The notes beneath the pieces are model-generated. The model had not been told where the DNA came from, searched no databases, and saw nothing but the letters and a program-made list of their open reading frames with translations. 64,000 nucleotides of DNA, from positions 2,551,501 to 2,615,500 of the forward strand of contig NC_092024.1 in assembly GCF_042242105.1 (NCBI RefSeq). The letters are read 5' to 3'. Numbering within the stretch: the stretch's first letter is position 1; each line of letters starts with the position of its first letter. The stretch comes from Pempheris klunzingeri. Its lineage: Eukaryota; Chordata; Actinopteri; Acropomatiformes; Pempheridae. Both the position numbers and the translations under genes were made by a program. Shown one piece after another: positions 6,710 through 61,201 of this stretch.

Positions 6710-7882
6710 TTATGAGGAGTTCATGATTGGCCTGGAATAGACGCCTTGGTAGTAAGTCGTGTCAGGTATGGATGAAGAATCCAGACCGGGTTTGCCCGCC
6801 ATGGAGCCCATGGAAAGAGCCCCGGCCATGGGGGAGCCATAGCCAGAGTAATGCATCACCTGCTCGTAAGTCTTTAGGTCCATTTTGTGATGCTGCTGCT
6901 CCGAGGACATGAGGTTATTTATGGAGAAGGGGTGGTTGAAGGAGTAGTGGTGCTCCGGCTTCAGGTGCGCTTCGTGCGCAAGGACCGAGTGATGCTGAGA
7001 CATGAGGTGCTGCCCCTGCGACACCGGGGAGGCGGCGGCGTGCTCCGGGCTCAGGGCCTGGCTCGTCTTCATGTCCGACAGGGACCTTTTGTGGTCGCTG
7101 GAGGAGGAGTTAGAGTGCGGGGACTCGTTGCCGTTGCAGCTCTCCGAGCTGCTGTTGGAGGAGCCGCCGTCTCCCCCTTTGCGCCCGGAATCCTTCATGG
7201 TCTTCTTGTCGCACTTGAAGCGCTTCTGCCTCCTCAGGTAGCAGCCGTTCTCAAACATGTTCCCGGAGTCCGGATGCAGAGTCCAAAAGGAGCCTTTCCC
7301 GGGTTTATCCGGCGACCTGGGCACTTTGAGGAAGCAGTCATTGAACGACAAAGAGTGGCGAATGGAGTTCTGCCAGCGCTGCTGGTTCTGTCGGTAAAAA
7401 GGGAACAGGTCCATTATCCACTGGTAGATCTCGGCCAGTGTCAGCATCTTGCTGGGAGACTGCTGGATGGCCATGGTGATGAGGGAAATGTAGGAATACG
7501 GGGGTTTGGCGTGCGTGTAGCTCCTGCGGTAGGTCTTGGGGTCTCTGGACCTGTTGATGTTAGACTGTCCGTAAATGGGGCTCATGGCGTTCATGTTGGT
7601 GTAGGATGTCAGGGCGTTCATGGATGCGGGCTGCGCGGTCATGGGACTCATACTGGGGCTCAGGGCTGCGCTCATGGCCGTCATGCCCGCTCCCATGCCG
7701 TTCATGGCTCCGGTGCCCGGTGACATGCCGGTCATGGAGGGGCTCATGCCCGTGTTGACGTAAGACATGTTCATGGAGTTGGCTGTCATGTTGGCAGTGC
7801 TGTTCATGCCGGACATGCTCATGTAGGTATTCATAGAGTTCATTCCCAGGCCCGTGTTCATGTTGCCAACCGAGGTGTAACA
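6710..7882 (-). CDS. foxa2: foxa2 coding exon 2
   Basis: Starts after the acceptor CACTGACAG (phase 0), first residues CYTSVGNMN, and runs to the TGA at 6710-6712. It contains the whole forkhead domain and both C-terminal transactivation motifs. Confidence 0.96.
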
Positions 7883-8214
7883 CTGTCAGTGAGGGAAAGA
7901 GATGATCAGTTTGGCTCAAGCATTACAGGAAGGAACCAGAAGCAACTGTAATGACTAAACACAGAGGTTAGGTTTTCTCTAAGCCTCATAAAATCAGAAT
8001 GATTGCGTTCGTTCAAAATAGGATTATTCTGGTTGGAGGTACTTTAAATGCGCGCTGGCTCGTAAAGGTTAAACAGAGACGTGCTGTGATATTAAGAAAG
8101 CAGCTGCATGTGTTTAACAAAGCACTTAAAGCCGCTGCTAAAGACAGTAAATCAAGTTAAACAATCCGCTAAAAATGTACAATGTCGAAGAGACTGACAC
8201 CTAAAGTGACTGTG

Positions 8215-20656: not shown

Positions 20657-52185
<31,529 letters not shown>

Positions 52186-52565
52186 TGGGTTTCTTCCAAT
52201 GGCAACGTGAAATGCGGAATAGTGGAGGTTTTAGCGAAGGCTGGCAGAAAAAAGCACAGTTGGATGTCTGCGGATAGATTCTTGGTAATAATCTCTGGTC
52301 CTCATCAGCCGCAGTGAGTCAGCACTGTACGTTTTCATCAAAGTGACATCGTTATTCATAAATTAAAAAGAACAATAGCAGATCTGCCCACCTGAGCTCA
52401 CGCAACACACACTCATGCACTAGATGGGCAGGTGATGGAGAAAACGTCTCTGGACAATCCACAGACGTCTGCAGTAAAATCACTGCAAACAACTTCATAT
52501 CCTGGAGGGGTGCTCCTTCTCCTTACTGAGGTCAGTAATCCACTCTGACCACAGGAAGCCTGTCA

Positions 52566-54568: not shown

Positions 54569-54726
54569 TTAATACTGTGGAAAAGTGGGGTCTATTCTCT
54601 TCGCCCAGGCCATGAGGCCTCCGCAGATGTCTTTCACTGTCATACTGTCCACTTCTGGTCCACTCATCTTCTCCAGAACCTGCACCGCCTTCTGAGAGTC
54701 GTTACCCAGCTTACAGACCACATACA
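54569..54726 (-). CDS. mocs3: mocs3 coding exon 13 (rhodanese active site)
   Basis: Encodes [20 protein letters not shown] to [17 protein letters not shown], stop TAA at 54569-54571. Acceptor CTCCTGCAG. Confidence 0.96.
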
Positions 54727-57700
54727 CTGCAGGAGAGAACAGTGGAGAGAACACACAGAGAAACATCTGAGACAAACTGAGATTTGGAGCTGTAGAAACA
54801 CTAATATTACCCATCAGTCCCACAGAGTCGGTGAGACTGTATTACAAGCAGAGTTAAAACCCCACAAGGCTAAATTTAGCTCATTGATAAAGAAAGCTCA
54901 TCAGAGTGAATATACAGGACATCACCGAAATAACGCTCTGAATATTTAGTTCTCTAAAGCAGGCCAGCTGCTCAGGTTGACCGTACGTGTTTTGGAAAAG
55001 GGGTCACCTAGCAACCCCATTACAACCTGCTACTAGCTGTCCAAAATAAGCCAGTATGAGACTGCACAGTGGGCTGTGAATATGCACCACTGGCTCTACA
55101 TGCCTGTTCATTTCAAACAGCACGTACGGACCCTGTCTGGTGTTTTGACATGTTACCTGGAGGCCGGCAGTCACCTGCCATCTGCTGCCTCAATTGGCTG
55201 ATTCTCTCCTGGAGTAATCGGATATGTTCGCTCTTCCTCTCCTCTAAACTCGAGAGGGGAATGTCTGGTGACAGCATAAGGAGAGTAATCACAAAGAAAG
55301 GGGGGAAAAACGGGATGAACGCGAACAGACAATACAGAATTGTGACAAAACGAGCCTGACTTTGTGCCTCCATCACTAGAAAAGGATACTGAGAGAGAAA
55401 GGTAAGTGGCATATGTCCACCTCCACAAGAGGGCGCACGTCCAATAAGAGATGGGGCTCTGCATTGTCCACGATCGATTTATAATCCTGGAATTTACATT
55501 AAATTACCCATTAGTGCACAAATATTAATAACTTTAAAATGCAAGTGTGAAATGTGGTTTTATCTTTTGGCAAATGACATAGATTTATATCAACGGTTAA
55601 AAGAGGGAAACCAAAATTGCTCAGAGAAAATCTTGATTTGTATTTGTGTAACGATATGAACATTTTAACTGCTTTTCCTTAAATCGCAGGAAACAAAACT
55701 GTTTCTAACTGGAGCCCCTTGCACAATCCTGATTACGGCCCAATCAATCATGATCCCCATCTCTGCACTTAATGACTCAGCGGGTTTGAAAGCGCCAGTT
55801 CTGCAGAAACATAAACAGATGCAATCCACTACCACTGCTCTCAGTGCCAAACAGAACATATTATTCTTTCCCATAGAAAATCTACAGGCTCATTTTAAGT
55901 CATTTCCCATTTGGGGCTGGGTCCGTGCTGAGATGTAATCAGTTTATGAATGCACATGAAAACTGAGAAAATTGTGAGTAATCATACAATAAACAGCGCT
56001 AAACACGGGGAGGCACGCAATGGCAGACTGTTCCGGGACATGTGCTCTCTACCTGTACTGTGATCCTCTGATCGCTGGAAAGGAGGTTGAGTTTGCGGCA
56101 CTGAAACACATGGGAAATCAGGCAATGAGAGATTTTTCCCGGGATTAGAGAATAATTACCCACACTGTACTGTGCCATGTTAAACAGCAAAATCCAGCCA
56201 ATGTAAGGCACACTTCTTATTGCCTGAAAAGTAATATTCTTGTGAAAATGGGCATGACCACCATAATATAAGGTACCCCGTCATCTTCGCCTGCTATGAC
56301 CAACCTTATCTGTGGCAGCAGACCCACAGAAGGCCTCATAGTCCACCAGCTGGGTTACACCGGGGTTCTCGCCGCACACTGCACAGCTGGCCTGCTTGGG
56401 ACGCAGCTTGATGGACCTGAATCTGGCATCTTGAGCATCAAACATCACCAGCTGCTGGCCGCAGGAAGCTGTCAGGCCGGGTCAGGAAAAAGGCCACTTT
56501 ACGAAAAGCATCACCAAGTTGCAAGATTCAGAGAATCGGCTGGCACGTCTCCCCCGTTTGTGTAGGGAGCGCCGTCGCTACTTACAGGCGTTTTGGGAGG
56601 AAAATAGTACAAAACTTCCCCCGGCTGACGCATAAGGGCCAGGTGTTAGTCTGTGTATAACAATGGAGAAGAAGGAAGAAGAGGGCAAGTCTATTCTCCG
56701 ATGTGAGCCTCAGTATAAGAGAATACTATAATCACAAGCCTCAGCCTCATAAGGGTTCTCGTAGGAACGGCAGACACAAACAGCCTCTTTTTGCTTTATT
56801 TTATCAGATGGGCACAAAACACACTTCTCACCCCTAACTTTGCTACAACGAAAACCCTTTCAGCAGCTCGTTGGTGATTCACCCAGATGGCTCGACACAA
56901 GACTCTGATGTACTGTATGTAATGTGGGAGTTGGGAACGGAAAACCAAAAGGATACAGCCTTGTCCTGAGGCGATCTTGATGACTTCCAATGCTTGGAGG
57001 CAGCCCATTATCCCTGGAACTAAAAGAAAAATGGAACATTTTGCAAACAATCATTTACACAGACTGTGCTCTGTGCAAATGTAACAGTTTTTGGGGCAAG
57101 TTAGGGGACAAGACTCACCCACTCCTAACACCCCTCCGTCAGAACAGTTGGTCACCGTCTCGGGGGGTGGGGGCACCGGGTACAGGCATCTGTAGCAGGG
57201 GCCGCCACAGTAGTTATATACTGTCAGCTGCACACACAGAGTCAGATAAAGTGAAGTAACATTACAAATGTAGAATAGCTCATGTCCTCTTGCCACAATG
57301 AAGCAAGTAAGAGGCCTCTCTACCGTACCTGCCCCTCCATTCTCAGGGCACTTGCTGACACCAGAGGTTTGCCGCCGAGCACGCAGGCGTCATTCACTAG
57401 ATAACGAGTGGGCACGTTGTCTGAACAATCAGCCACAATGTCATACATGAGGTCAGCAAAGTCAAGGTGTAATCATATCATTGGTATTGGTTATTGCTAA
57501 GTCACATGTACACATTTCCCAACTGAATATCTGAAATTGTCCTCATGCAACAAAAGCAATCATGAGGCGGAGGGAGACCTGGTGGACGGCAGCTGTAAGA
57601 TAGACTCACGACAAAGAACTAGCAAGAGGCAGGTCTGTGTAGCAGATGTAGGTTGAGGCATTTGCAGCAGGATACTGTTGAATGAGTTGCAAGGCGTTCT

Positions 57701-60700
57701 CTGACGAGAGCTGCAGGTGGTAGGGAACACACTCTACTGTTGAGTTCAATCTGCACACATAAAGTCACATTCAGAAACATTAATGCATGTCCTAAGAAGT
57801 CTGGTTTGGTCCCCCCCATTATTCTCTCCCCCCTCCTGATCTTTATCACCTTTATCACCAAAGAGGCATCGTAAAAACACAAATGGGTGACACAGCATCC
57901 AAACTGTATGAGGTATTTGCTAGTCAGAGAAATGGCCCCCTCATGTGGTCATGGTTATACAGTGTGTATGTTAACCACAGTAGGCCCACTGTGAGGGAGA
58001 GAGGCACCAAAAACAGTCCGTAAAATGACATGTTTACACAATATTTGCGGACTGGGGAGAAATACACAACCAAATATAACCTGTGGTGAGACTGGAGAGC
58101 GCCAACATGCATTACACAGCAACCAAAGGGTCACAAAAAACACAGAAATACACCATTTATCATAGTTACAGAACATTTTCTAATAATATCAAAATACTAA
58201 CTTCTCTGTTTCAGGTCTGTTTGCGCAAGTTTGCCACAAGTGCACAGGCTGTACTGGATAATGTTTCATTCAGTGTTTGCTGCCCAGGCGCCAGTCAGTA
58301 CCTTTTAACTGCCAGCGCAGCGGACAGAGCCTTGGCCTGGCCCTGGCTGTCCTCCCCATGAAGCACCTGTCTGTGCAGGTTACTGAGCTCCACCTCGTCA
58401 TAGTCCAGCAGACCCAGACGCCCTGCAGAGACACAAACCAACAACTCAGTCAGAGTTTTTAGAATAAATGTGAAACCCAGATGGAGGTGAACCTTGACGA
58501 TTAAACCAGGGTATAAACTGGACTGTTTTTTTGTTTGGTTTTTCTTTGGCAGACTTTACTGACACTTTTTTATCTGTGCTTCTCGGTTGTTGCATTTTCT
58601 TAAAATTTGTATCCACTAACCACTGGACACAAGGAGTGACTGTGGCCCTGAACGGTACACCGACTCTACACAAACTTCTACCCCTACCCCTTGCATTAGT
58701 TTTTCCATTTCCACCACTTAGATACAGCCAAGCTGTAGTTTTACCTGAGGTAACAGGTGGTATCATTTTAACTGCAAAAGAAAAACACTCACAAAATAAG
58801 TAAATCTTAAATTAGAATTTGTGAATCTACTTCTGTCTCTTCAGAGTTGTGCCAGTGCACCTGATTTTATTAATTATATAGCACTCAAAAGCGGTGGTGT
58901 GATATATTTCTTTTGGAAACATAAATGAAAACTTTCCATTCCTTGTGTTTCTTGGCCCAAACTATTCTCTTCTTCTTCTTCTTCTTCTTCCTCAGTTAGT
59001 GGCCTCTTTGCAGCAGTTCGACCATGAAGGCCTGATTCACACAGTCTCCTCTGAACAGTTGATGCTGAGATGTGTCTGCTACTCTGTGAATCATTTATGT
59101 GCTCTAAACTGAGGTGCTGTTAATTTAACTCTAATGAACTTATCCTCTGCAGCAGAGGTAACCCTTGGTCTTCTTTTCCTGGGCCGTCCTCATGAGAGCC
59201 TGTTTCATCACAGCGTTTGATGGTTTTTGCGACTGTCCTCGAGGAAACATTAAAAGTTCTTGAAATTATCTGGATTGACTGACCTTCATGTCTTCAAGTA
59301 ATAATAACTGTCATTTCTCTTTACTTAGTTGAGTGCTTCTTTCCATAATGTGGATTGGAACAGAGGGATTTTCACTGTATAGAACTGTGCACCAAGCCAA
59401 CCTCTGCACAGCACAACTGATGGTCTCAAATGCATTAAGAAGGTAAGAAATTACACAAATTAACTCGTGACAAGGCTCATGTGTTGATTGAAAACTACTC
59501 CAGGTGACGTCCTCATGAAGCTGACTAAGAGAATTCCAAGAGTGTGCAAAGCATCAAAGAGTCATCAAAGCAAAAGGTGGCTGTAGGTTAGCAGCTACTG
59601 GGAGGTGAGATTACCAGATTACTAATTTTACTCCTTATATAAAAGGAAAAGACTAATTGTTGACATCTCAGCTGTTACTGATGCCCATATAGCACATTCA
59701 TGACAAGGACAGTGACAGAAAGGTTAAAGATTTGTTTGGCACAAGATCACGCTGAGCATTAATCAACTAGAATACTTACCGATGCCTGCTGCTGCAAGAT
59801 ACTGTGCCAAGGGGCAGCCCAGTCCTCCACAGCCCACAACCAGCACTGAGGTCTTGGATAAGTTTAGCTGACCTTTGGACACACAAGATCCACTCTGTTG
59901 TGTTCAGTCATGTCATAGATCTCACTGGGCACAAAGCTTACCGTAGTGTATATGAGAATAACACCGTGTGTAGCCAGCCGTACCTTGCACACCCAGATCA
60001 GGCAGGAGGAGCTGTCTGCTATACCGCATGATGTCCTCATTGCTGAGGGCTGGTTTGGCTTTCAGGGGGGTTAGGGGTATCACTTTGCCATGCAGCTCGA
60101 GGACTGAGGTGTGGCTCTGAGAACGGATCAGATCAGATCAGGAACCAATTATCAAACAAGACATATGCTTAAACATCACAGCCCTCAACAATCTGCCTCT
60201 AGGATATGATGAGCTACATTTCTATCTCTCTTTACATCCGTCTCCTGCCCATATGTCTGACATATGGAGCTATGTGGGAAAAGCTCTTCACAGAGACAGA
60301 TTTACGTCGCTGGTAGTGAGCTTACTGATATCTTCTTTAGCATTTCAGGCAGGCTTATTCTGGACACTTTAAAACGCCTGTTTTTATCTCCCCTTTGTGA
60401 CAATAACGGGAGATAAAGAGGTTTTTATTCTTTTGCATGTTTTGCACTGATTTATTTCTTAGCTCAAAATCCTCTGACTCTATGAATATCTATTAACACT
60501 GCATATTGCTTTTACACATTTCCTTGTACAGGTGTGTAGGCATTTAGTGCTGTACTACTAATGCAATGCTGATGGGATATTCACGTGGGTGTTGTGCATT
60601 CACTCCCAGTAATTAAATAATTGTTGTCAGATTTAGATGATCAATTACCTAATTACGCTTTCAGTGCTGGTTTTTACCCAGCAGCACCTGCACACGTAGA

Positions 60701-61201
60701 TGAGTGTGTCCCTGCTATAAGGAGCCACACTAAAGTCTGTGTGTACTGTGTGTGAGTTTCTCTGTTTCTAACTGTGCTTTAATGTTTCATCTTTCCACAG
60801 CTACACATCATCTTTAAGACAGTTACAGTCACTAGTTCACTGGCTAGCTAACAAGCTAGTTAGCTCAGTGAGTCCCAGTGCCCAGGTTTGTTTTAAGGTA
60901 GGAGTAACGGTAATGTTACTGCCGTTACCTTACAGGACAGACTGTGAGGAAGGTGTGCTGACTTTATGTGGACTACAGAGGTGCTACAGTAACGTTTCAG
61001 CTAGCTGCAACATAAATGCTAAACCGCTGGATTAAAAACACGGACAACTAATAGCATTTACCTGTTGTGATAAAAGTAACCTGAGCATTCAGTAAGACTT
61101 CTCCGTACCTTTTCCAGCTGTGCCAGTTTACTCTTCAGAGCAGCAATTTCTGCCTCTTTCTCCCTGAGCTGTGCCCGCAGACAGCACACACCCTGAGCCA
61201 T
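54569..61201 (-). CDS. mocs3: Mocs3/Uba4, adenylyltransferase and sulfurtransferase, 13 coding exons
   Basis: Cytosolic E1-like enzyme that adenylates and then thiolates the C-terminus of the sulfur carriers MOCS2A (molybdopterin synthase) and URM1 (tRNA wobble thiolation). Joined exons total 1380 bp, 459 residues (human 460). Order: N-terminal coiled-coil-like segment (1-31), ThiF/E1 domain with nucleotide loop GCGGLG (89-94), zinc cysteines C222/C225 and C297/C300, catalytic Cys239 in [10 protein letters not shown], then rhodanese domain with active-site Cys412 in [13 protein letters not shown] and the family C-terminus [17 protein letters not shown]. Cysteine numbering equals human, supporting the exon model. 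The human gene is intronless, whereas here there are 12 introns, three with U12-type donors. It sits head to head with qpct and in tandem with prkd3. Confidence 0.96.
55157..55264 (-). CDS. mocs3: mocs3 coding exon 12, two in-frame donors
   Basis: Encodes [20 protein letters not shown] and [15 protein letters not shown]. Donors CAG/GTGACT (after 55175) and CAG/GTAACA (after 55157) are 18 nt apart and in the same phase. The second restores Cys412 at the human position and is taken as main. Confidence 0.9.
55265..55389 (-). other. mocs3: mocs3 intron 11, U12-type donor
   Basis: A 125-bp intron starting GTATCCTTTTCT, an exact match to the minor-spliceosome donor GTATCCTTT. It ends with a CTCCTTATG branch-like motif 12 nt before the CACCAG acceptor. 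Confidence 0.65.
55390..55486 (-). CDS. mocs3: mocs3 coding exon 11 (rhodanese start)
   Basis: Encodes [20 protein letters not shown] and [12 protein letters not shown]. Acceptor ATTCCAG, donor CTCA/GTATCC. Confidence 0.93.
56053..56100 (-). CDS. mocs3: mocs3 coding exon 10 (48-bp exon)
   Basis: Encodes [16 protein letters not shown], linker between E1 and rhodanese domains. Acceptor TTTCAG/TGC, donor CAG/GTAGAG. Confidence 0.92.
56305..56468 (-). CDS. mocs3: mocs3 coding exon 9 (second zinc pair)
   Basis: Encodes [20 protein letters not shown] through [20 protein letters not shown] to CGSAATDK. The CAVC pair completes the zinc site. Acceptor CTGACAG, donor AAG/GTTGGT (weak). Confidence 0.93.
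56469..56956 (-). other. mocs3: mocs3 intron 8, U12-type
   Basis: A 488-bp intron starting GTATCCTTTTGG and ending TTTTTCCTGACCCGGCCTGACAG-like, with TTTCCTGAC 13 nt before the acceptor. The donor is a perfect minor-class match and the branch motif lacks one T of the consensus. Confidence 0.7.
56957..57019 (-). CDS. mocs3: mocs3 coding exon 8
   Basis: Encodes [20 protein letters not shown]. Acceptor TCTTTTAG/TT completes GVLGVVPGIMG. Donor GGCT/GTATCC. Confidence 0.94.
57119..57227 (-). CDS. mocs3: mocs3 coding exon 7 (catalytic Cys239)
   Basis: Encodes [20 protein letters not shown] and [16 protein letters not shown], with the zinc cysteines C222/C225 and the E1-type Cys239. Acceptor GTGCAG, donor GG/GTGAGT. 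Confidence 0.96.
57329..57446 (-). CDS. mocs3: mocs3 coding exon 6, unusual acceptor
   Basis: Encodes [20 protein letters not shown] through [19 protein letters not shown]. The reading frame requires the exon to start at the G of GTATGAC (57446), directly after CCTCAT. There is no AG in the 40 bases before it. Donor CAG/GTACGG. Confidence 0.88.
57447..57675 (-). other. mocs3: mocs3 intron 5, U12-type with GT-AT ends
   Basis: A 229-bp intron starting GTATCCTGC and ending ACACCTTGACTTTGCTGACCTCAT on the coding strand (CCTTGACT is an excellent U12 branch motif, about 15 nt from the end). It terminates in AT, not AG or AC. The boundary follows from the conserved protein [15 protein letters not shown]. 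Confidence 0.6.
57676..57750 (-). CDS. mocs3: mocs3 coding exon 5
   Basis: Encodes [20 protein letters not shown] and QLIQQ. Acceptor TGTGCAG, donor CAACA/GTATCC. Confidence 0.93.
58302..58422 (-). CDS. mocs3: mocs3 coding exon 4
   Basis: Encodes [20 protein letters not shown] to [10 protein letters not shown] with the E1-domain DYD and NLHRQ motifs. Acceptor CTCTGCAG, donor AAAAG/GTACTG. Confidence 0.95.
58905..59590 (-). mobile_element. degenerate Tc1/mariner-like transposon relic
   Basis: In mocs3 intron 3, antisense reading gives fragments of a Tc1-family transposase N-terminus, including [16 protein letters not shown] of the paired-type DNA-binding domain, then frameshifts and stops. 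The flanking part (59440-59590) with AAATTAACTCGTGACAAGGC and AAGAGTGTGCAAAGCATCAA matches the outer region of a Tc1-like element abundant in teleosts. An expanded TTC run sits at 58970-58994. Non-functional, and no intact ends found. Confidence 0.75.
59780..59872 (-). CDS. mocs3: mocs3 coding exon 3 (nucleotide-binding loop)
   Basis: Encodes [20 protein letters not shown] to [10 protein letters not shown] with the GCGGLG ATP-binding loop. Acceptor CCAAAG, donor ATCG/GTAAGT. Confidence 0.96.
59984..60116 (-). CDS. mocs3: mocs3 coding exon 2
   Basis: Encodes [20 protein letters not shown] to [19 protein letters not shown], the E1-domain start with RYSRQ motif. Acceptor TTCTCAG, donor CAAG/GTACGG. 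Confidence 0.95.
60117..61108 (-). other. mocs3: mocs3 intron 1
   Basis: A 992-bp intron with no recognised gene or repeat beyond AT-rich sequence. Donor AAG/GTACGG and acceptor TTCTCAG are of the major class. Confidence 0.7.
61109..61201 (-). CDS. mocs3: mocs3 coding exon 1
   Basis: Starts [20 protein letters not shown] and ends [10 protein letters not shown], a heptad-like helical segment as in other MOCS3 proteins. The ATG at 61201 is the first in frame after an in-frame-neutral leader. Donor AAG/GTACGG. Confidence 0.92.

Follow-up and report, generated by a model that had tools for sequence, protein, structure and literature searches.

Intron 5 of mocs3 in the percomorph Pempheris klunzingeri (family Pempheridae) appears to be a genuine minor-spliceosome intron with an old and conserved AT acceptor, a reading drawn from sequence to which we give a probability of about 0.85. 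The AT acceptor looks old in that it is readable in sturgeon, bonytongues, otophysans, salmonids and percomorphs, the AT ends of these relatives being deduced from their proteins. We infer that the intron is cut by the minor spliceosome and that the AT is the site used in P. klunzingeri.

The gene lies complete within the window, by which we mean the whole 64,000-nucleotide stretch of DNA analysed here, and spans 6.6 kb. When its 13 exons are joined with a GT-AT junction at intron 5, the product is a 459-aa protein that equals, letter for letter, P0001, the deposited MOCS3 of P. klunzingeri. Both domains of a MOCS3/UBA4 protein, the ThiF-type adenylation domain and the rhodanese domain, are present: a 371-aa partial gave a ThiF match with E 1.3e-79, and PF00899 and PF00581 are listed for P0001 (identical over 459 aa). 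The features needed for the argument are as follows.

54569..61201, minus strand: coding region of mocs3 (459 aa) in 13 exons, with 12 introns
57676..57750, minus strand: exon 5, closing with ...LIQQ, of whose final Gln codon it carries two bases (CA)
57447..57675, minus strand: mocs3 intron 5, 229 nt, phase 2, with U12-type signals and GT-AT termini
57667..57675, minus strand: intron 5 donor, GTATCCTGC
57461..57467, minus strand: branch motif of U12 type, CCTTGAC; its presumed branch A is 57462, 15 nt from the end of the intron
57452..57453, minus strand: competing AC, 10 nt past the branch A, frame-shifting
57447..57448, minus strand: terminal AT, the in-frame 3' splice site
57329..57446, minus strand: exon 6, which starts with the adenylation-domain segment YDIVADC
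56469..56956, minus strand: mocs3 intron 8, U12-type donor, GTATCCTTTT ... TTTTTCCTGACCCGGCCTGACAG, GT-AG
55265..55389, minus strand: mocs3 intron 11, U12-type donor, GTATCCTTTT ... CTCTCCTTATGCTGTCACCAG, GT-AG

A search with P0001 of the species' own 646-Mb assembly returned 11 matches, all at the mocs3 locus, so that at this sensitivity no second copy or retrocopy was found, and a retrocopy or second gene as a spliced fossil was rejected on the same grounds. A degenerate pattern for the fish DNA of exon 6 gave no match in either the viral or the prokaryotic contig collection. Elsewhere in the window, a single open frame at 6710-7885 on the minus strand carries Forkhead, Forkhead_N and HNF_C domains (FoxA type), and possible pieces of a gene of protein kinase D type lie at 22960-52230 on the minus strand, with a PRKD ubiquitin-like domain (51862-52227) and, at 22960-23490, a weak kinase match under the curated cut-off. 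Intron 3 of mocs3 (59779-58423, minus strand) includes a stretch resembling the remnant of a Tc1-type DNA transposon. Rfam at gathering scores gave no match over the whole window.

The intron 5 junction reads CAACA/GTATCCTGC...ACACCTTGACTTTGCTGACCTCAT/GTATGAC on the minus strand. A sequence-only reading of this DNA had placed it at these same positions, 57675-57447, and had described a GTATCCT donor of minor-spliceosome type, a branch motif about 15 nt before the end, an AT terminus and the absence of AG in the 40 bases before exon 6. All of this is borne out: the 13-exon splice through that junction yields P0001, the AT is read directly in the window DNA, and the last 40 bases of the intron contain no AG. 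The same reading made no mention of the AC at 57453-57452 or of the U12 donors in introns 8 and 11. Because GTAT is repeated at both ends of intron 5, the junction can be drawn in five equivalent registers that give an identical mRNA. Canonical termini appear in none of these registers, and a register shift within the repeat was therefore rejected as a way to obtain them. Only the GT-AT register sets the donor in the U12 register. Inside the intron there are no direct or inverted repeats of at least 10. Use of the AC at 57453-57452 as acceptor would add 5 nt, shift the frame and bring a stop at codon 190, and retention of the intron would bring one at codon 195.

The intron 5 donor, GTATCCTG, agrees with the U12 donor pattern [G/A]TATCCTT at 7 of 8 positions. 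Scored against GTATCCTT, the donors of introns 5, 8 and 11 reach 7, 8 and 8 of 8; the donors of the other nine mocs3 introns, all of them GT-AG, score 2 to 5 of 8. The heptamer GTATCCT occurs seven times in the window, counting both strands with their 7,674 GT dinucleotides, and three of the seven copies are the donors of mocs3 introns 5, 8 and 11. Introns 8 and 11 thus have perfect U12 donors (GTATCCTT) and mocs3 has three U12-type donors in all, which makes the class assignment of intron 5 safer. The U12 branch-site consensus used for scoring was TTCCTTRAC, to which the intron 5 branch, CACCTTGAC, matches at 7 of 9 positions with a perfect CCTTRAC core. That core falls 8-25 nt from the end in 0.45% of 20,000 dinucleotide shuffles of intron 5. 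The looser 7-of-9 match is weak taken alone, since it is present in 8% of the shuffles and so is not significant. By one and the same script, the distance from branch to acceptor is 15 nt to the AT and 10 nt to the out-of-frame AC in intron 5, 13 nt in intron 8 and 11 nt in intron 11. The assembly also contains a U11 snRNA gene (E 3e-21).

GT-AT is neither of the main-subtype termini, AT-AC or GT-AG, which are not required for membership of the class; the accessible parts of several papers report other termini for U12-type introns (PMC8280824, PMC10639083, PMC3584512, PMC2831892). Extracts of PMC3584512 add that non-canonical ends support U12-dependent splicing in experiments, often at lower efficiency, and those of PMC2831892 report that each of the 16 possible NU-AN pairings of terminal bases has been tested by mutation. 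If intron 5 is removed in this way, the GTATCCT donor would be recognised by U11 and later by U6atac, the CCTTGAC branch site would be recognised by U12, and the second step would cut after the AT, 15 nt downstream of the branch, joining CA/G TAT and so restoring LIQQ/YDIVADC.

The junction was followed in proteins. Three protein searches, the last two of which targeted faulty junctions and each of which listed its best 120 matches, brought together 185 MOCS3 proteins. In 148 of them LIQQ joins YDIVADC cleanly, with no spare residue; 21 have extra residues before YDIVADC, which are the 3' end of intron 5 translated, as far as protein sequence can tell; and 16 continue past the donor, every one of them through QYP, with part or all of YDIVADCS gone, as if a gene finder had met no canonical acceptor. 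Proteins from the source 'lgn', which come from contigs of 1.1-2.1 kb in other fishes, have the clean junction in 22 of 22 cases. We take these short contigs to be presumably transcripts because mocs3 in the window spans 6.6 kb. For one of them, P0005, the nearest other collected protein is a Pampus model (94.8%); a gap of 47 residues, the length of the Pampus read-through, separates the two.

We asked how exon 5 could be joined to exon 6 in other ways, using the terminus pairs GT-AG, GC-AG, AT-AC, GT-AC and AT-AG. Donors could lie between 20 nt into exon 5 and 20 nt short of exon 6, acceptors could reach to within 10 nt of the end of exon 6, and introns had to be at least 50 nt long. Sixty-four alternatives are in frame and open; all were rejected, since each alters the protein and none restores MOCS3, and it is the GT-AT junction alone that gives the conserved protein. 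The GT-AG alternative with the least change runs from a donor at 57619 to an AG within exon 6 (57422-57421), at a cost of 8 residues lost and 18 gained. Were the major spliceosome to use this pair, YDIVADCS would be replaced by residues coded in the intron, and solutions of like kind are indeed found in the 16 deposited QYP models. The segment that would be deleted, however, aligns with WDVILDCTDN in the adenylation domain of the solved Uba4 structure, such a splice is absent from all 22 short contigs, and some of the same species also have clean models (in Seriola dumerili P0009 is clean and P0169 has no intact YDIVADCS, as is the case for P0053 and P0093 in Mastacembelus). We regard this alternative as very improbable. 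The deposited MOCS3 models that do not have the YDIVADCS segment are likely to be annotation errors.

The 21 read-through proteins preserve a record of how the intron ends. The codon preceding the exon is Met in 12 proteins, Ile in 8 and Thr in 1. Its third base belongs to the exon, and the intron would therefore end in AT in 20 of the 21 and in AC in the remaining one. The 20 AT cases come from 14 genera besides that of the window, from sturgeon and bonytongues to salmonids, tetras and percomorphs: Huso (a sturgeon, Chondrostei), Scleropages, Arapaima, Astyanax, Triplophysa, Oncorhynchus, Salmo, Menidia, Mugilogobius, Pholidichthys, Pampus, Xyrichtys, Amphiprion and Oreochromis. Fourteen of the 21 tails fit L-[D/N]-x-x-x-x-[M/I], a form that CTTRAC, a further 12 nt and AT could encode, with the spacing seen in the window; these are from sturgeon, Astyanax, salmonids, Menidia, Pampus, Amphiprion, Oreochromis and Xyrichtys, and the Huso tail, FFLN, is compatible with the full TTCCTTAAC. 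The seven that do not fit are short tails from Scleropages (two proteins), Arapaima and Triplophysa, in which the last codon is less certain, and other tails from Pholidichthys, Mugilogobius and Albula. Clean and read-through models occur within one species in Amphiprion ocellaris (P0012 clean, P0140 a read-through ending in AT) and in Astyanax mexicanus (P0180 clean, P0149 a read-through ending in AT). This set is biased, since gene models would handle a canonical end properly and such introns would then be missing from it. Relatives could also be AT-AT, because the protein does not reveal whether the intron starts with G or A, Gln being CAA or CAG.

The one AC case, P0185 from Albula goreensis, counts against our reading. 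It also has a donor read as YP, which is consistent with a GT-AC or an AT-AC form.

The sequence-only reading had combined two propositions, that mocs3 contains a U12-type GT-AT intron and that its AT arose recently from AC by deamination at a CpG. The first is supported and the second is not. A recent mutation, a polymorphism or a sequencing error in the assembly, turning AC (or AG) into AT, would need only a single C-to-T change, and the site would be a CpG in P. klunzingeri, but the AT end recurs in the 20 read-through proteins from other fishes. In species with Ile there would be no CpG at all, because Ile together with a normal Gln means that the exon starts with A, and a shared sequencing error is not credible because the AT recurs over so many assemblies. 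We give this account very little weight. A change from AC to AT far back in the ray-finned fishes is possible, Albula goreensis being the species that reads AC, and its AC form could help to polarise the change.

If instead the AC at 57453-57452 were the main 3' splice site, giving a GT-AC intron, the AT would be unused or minor. AC is a normal end for a minor intron, and the accessible text of PMC3584512 gives 11-13 nt as the best distance from branch to 3' splice site, to which the AC at 10 nt comes nearer than the AT; that the AT at 15 nt lies beyond this optimum while an AC stands at 10 nt is a point against our own reading. The AC would nevertheless add 5 nt and lead to the stop at codon 190, all 22 short contigs of other fishes have the clean junction, the same text describes GT-AC as disfavoured, and in the Astyanax read-through a Phe at that place leaves no room for an AC. 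We regard such a main role for the AC as very improbable, if slightly more probable than recent mutation or the major spliceosome. Another account accepts the AT as real but as one of two outcomes, with AT splicing leading to protein and AC use or retention leading to mRNA decay, so that a weak site would set mocs3 output. The stops at codons 190 and 195 agree with this, and a codon (GAY or CAY) that would allow an AC 10 nt past the branch can be read in Pampus and the salmonids as well, although that AC is absent from some lineages, as in Astyanax. We consider this account unlikely, if well ahead of the other alternatives. The 15-nt distance and the nearby out-of-frame AC do suggest that the intron 5 AT is a weak site. 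The further proposal that the AT has been under selection since the ray-finned ancestor, as a weak or specially read site that competes with the AC and limits MOCS3 output, is speculative and in our judgement improbable. Our preferred reading remains that of an old, conserved AT acceptor in a genuine minor-spliceosome intron.

Damage to deposited models was compared across introns by counting non-conservative columns at every junction in the 119 other proteins of the first search. With at least five disturbed columns, the count (of 119) is 10 at intron 5, 23 at intron 1, 4 at intron 12, 1 at intron 11 and 0 at the other eight. Raising the threshold to six leaves 4 at intron 5, 14 at intron 1 and 1 each at introns 11 and 12, and at seven there are 3 at intron 5, 8 at intron 1 and 1 at intron 11. 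A count of gaps only, which misses replacements, gives 4, 6, 4 and 1 of 119 for introns 5, 1, 12 and 11 and none for the rest. That intron 1 is disturbed more often than intron 5 at each threshold weighs against our reading; its junction lies in a variable, poorly conserved N-terminal stretch. Inspection by eye puts the number of listed proteins with a wrong intron 5 at 11 of 120, one of which, P0062, the script missed. The 453-aa isoforms P0019, P0033 and P0050 from three percomorphs are six residues shorter than their 459-aa partners and show gaps at the intron 12 junction, possibly reflecting an alternative splice site there.

What stands out is the reach of the odd end across fishes, the presence of three U12-type donors in mocs3, and the damaged gene models. 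The annotation cost can be put at 37 of the 185 collected MOCS3 proteins that depart from the clean junction, a share raised by the design of the searches, two of which looked for faulty junctions on purpose. The gene concerned is one of sulfur transfer, MOCS3 being an enzyme of tRNA thiolation and of molybdenum-cofactor synthesis. The ways in which gene models fail may expose other conserved non-canonical introns. Because its odd 3' end appears to be kept across the ray-finned fishes, intron 5 can serve to test how the minor spliceosome reads intron ends, and it could also be used to ask whether non-canonical ends are tolerated or selected.

Openly licensed main texts yielded no literature linking mocs3 to a U12 or minor intron. 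The GT-AT minor intron is itself a kind already known, and mocs3 intron 5 adds to it. The sequence-only reading had called AT-ended minor introns very rare, a statement that needs context: according to the accessible text of PMC10639083, about 3.8% of the orthologous minor introns of animals have non-canonical termini, with AT-AT the second commonest non-canonical type, and GT-AT is named among the human G-type (GT-AN) minor introns in that of de Wolf et al. 2021 (PMC8280824). For U12 introns of fishes, the 'other' column in the portion of PMC7367187 available gives 2.7% in zebrafish, 5.0% in fugu and 11% in Tetraodon.

Intron 5 resembles the human GT-AN minor introns in being U12-type with a GT start and a variable last base, and differs from the human GT-AT entry, as given in the accessible text (PMC8280824), in lying in fish mocs3 with an AT end traceable in proteins across the ray-finned fishes. 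AT-AT minor introns, as extracts of PMC10639083 present them, have the same 3' end, whereas the first base of mocs3 intron 5 is G, although its relatives, read from proteins, may be AT-AT. The GT-AT splices of Drosophila have the same terminal dinucleotides; in the part of PMC4528330 consulted, 11 of 14 have RNA-seq junction support. They differ in that all 14 are listed with a similar alternative splice and that U12 introns occupy other rows of the table. The non-canonical U12 introns of Lin et al. 2010 (PMC2831892) are like intron 5 in having odd termini that genome-scale work tends to miss. In the accessible text of that paper, however, these cases have an odd 5' end and canonical orthologues in other vertebrates, whereas the odd end of intron 5 lies at its 3' side and appears to be widely shared.
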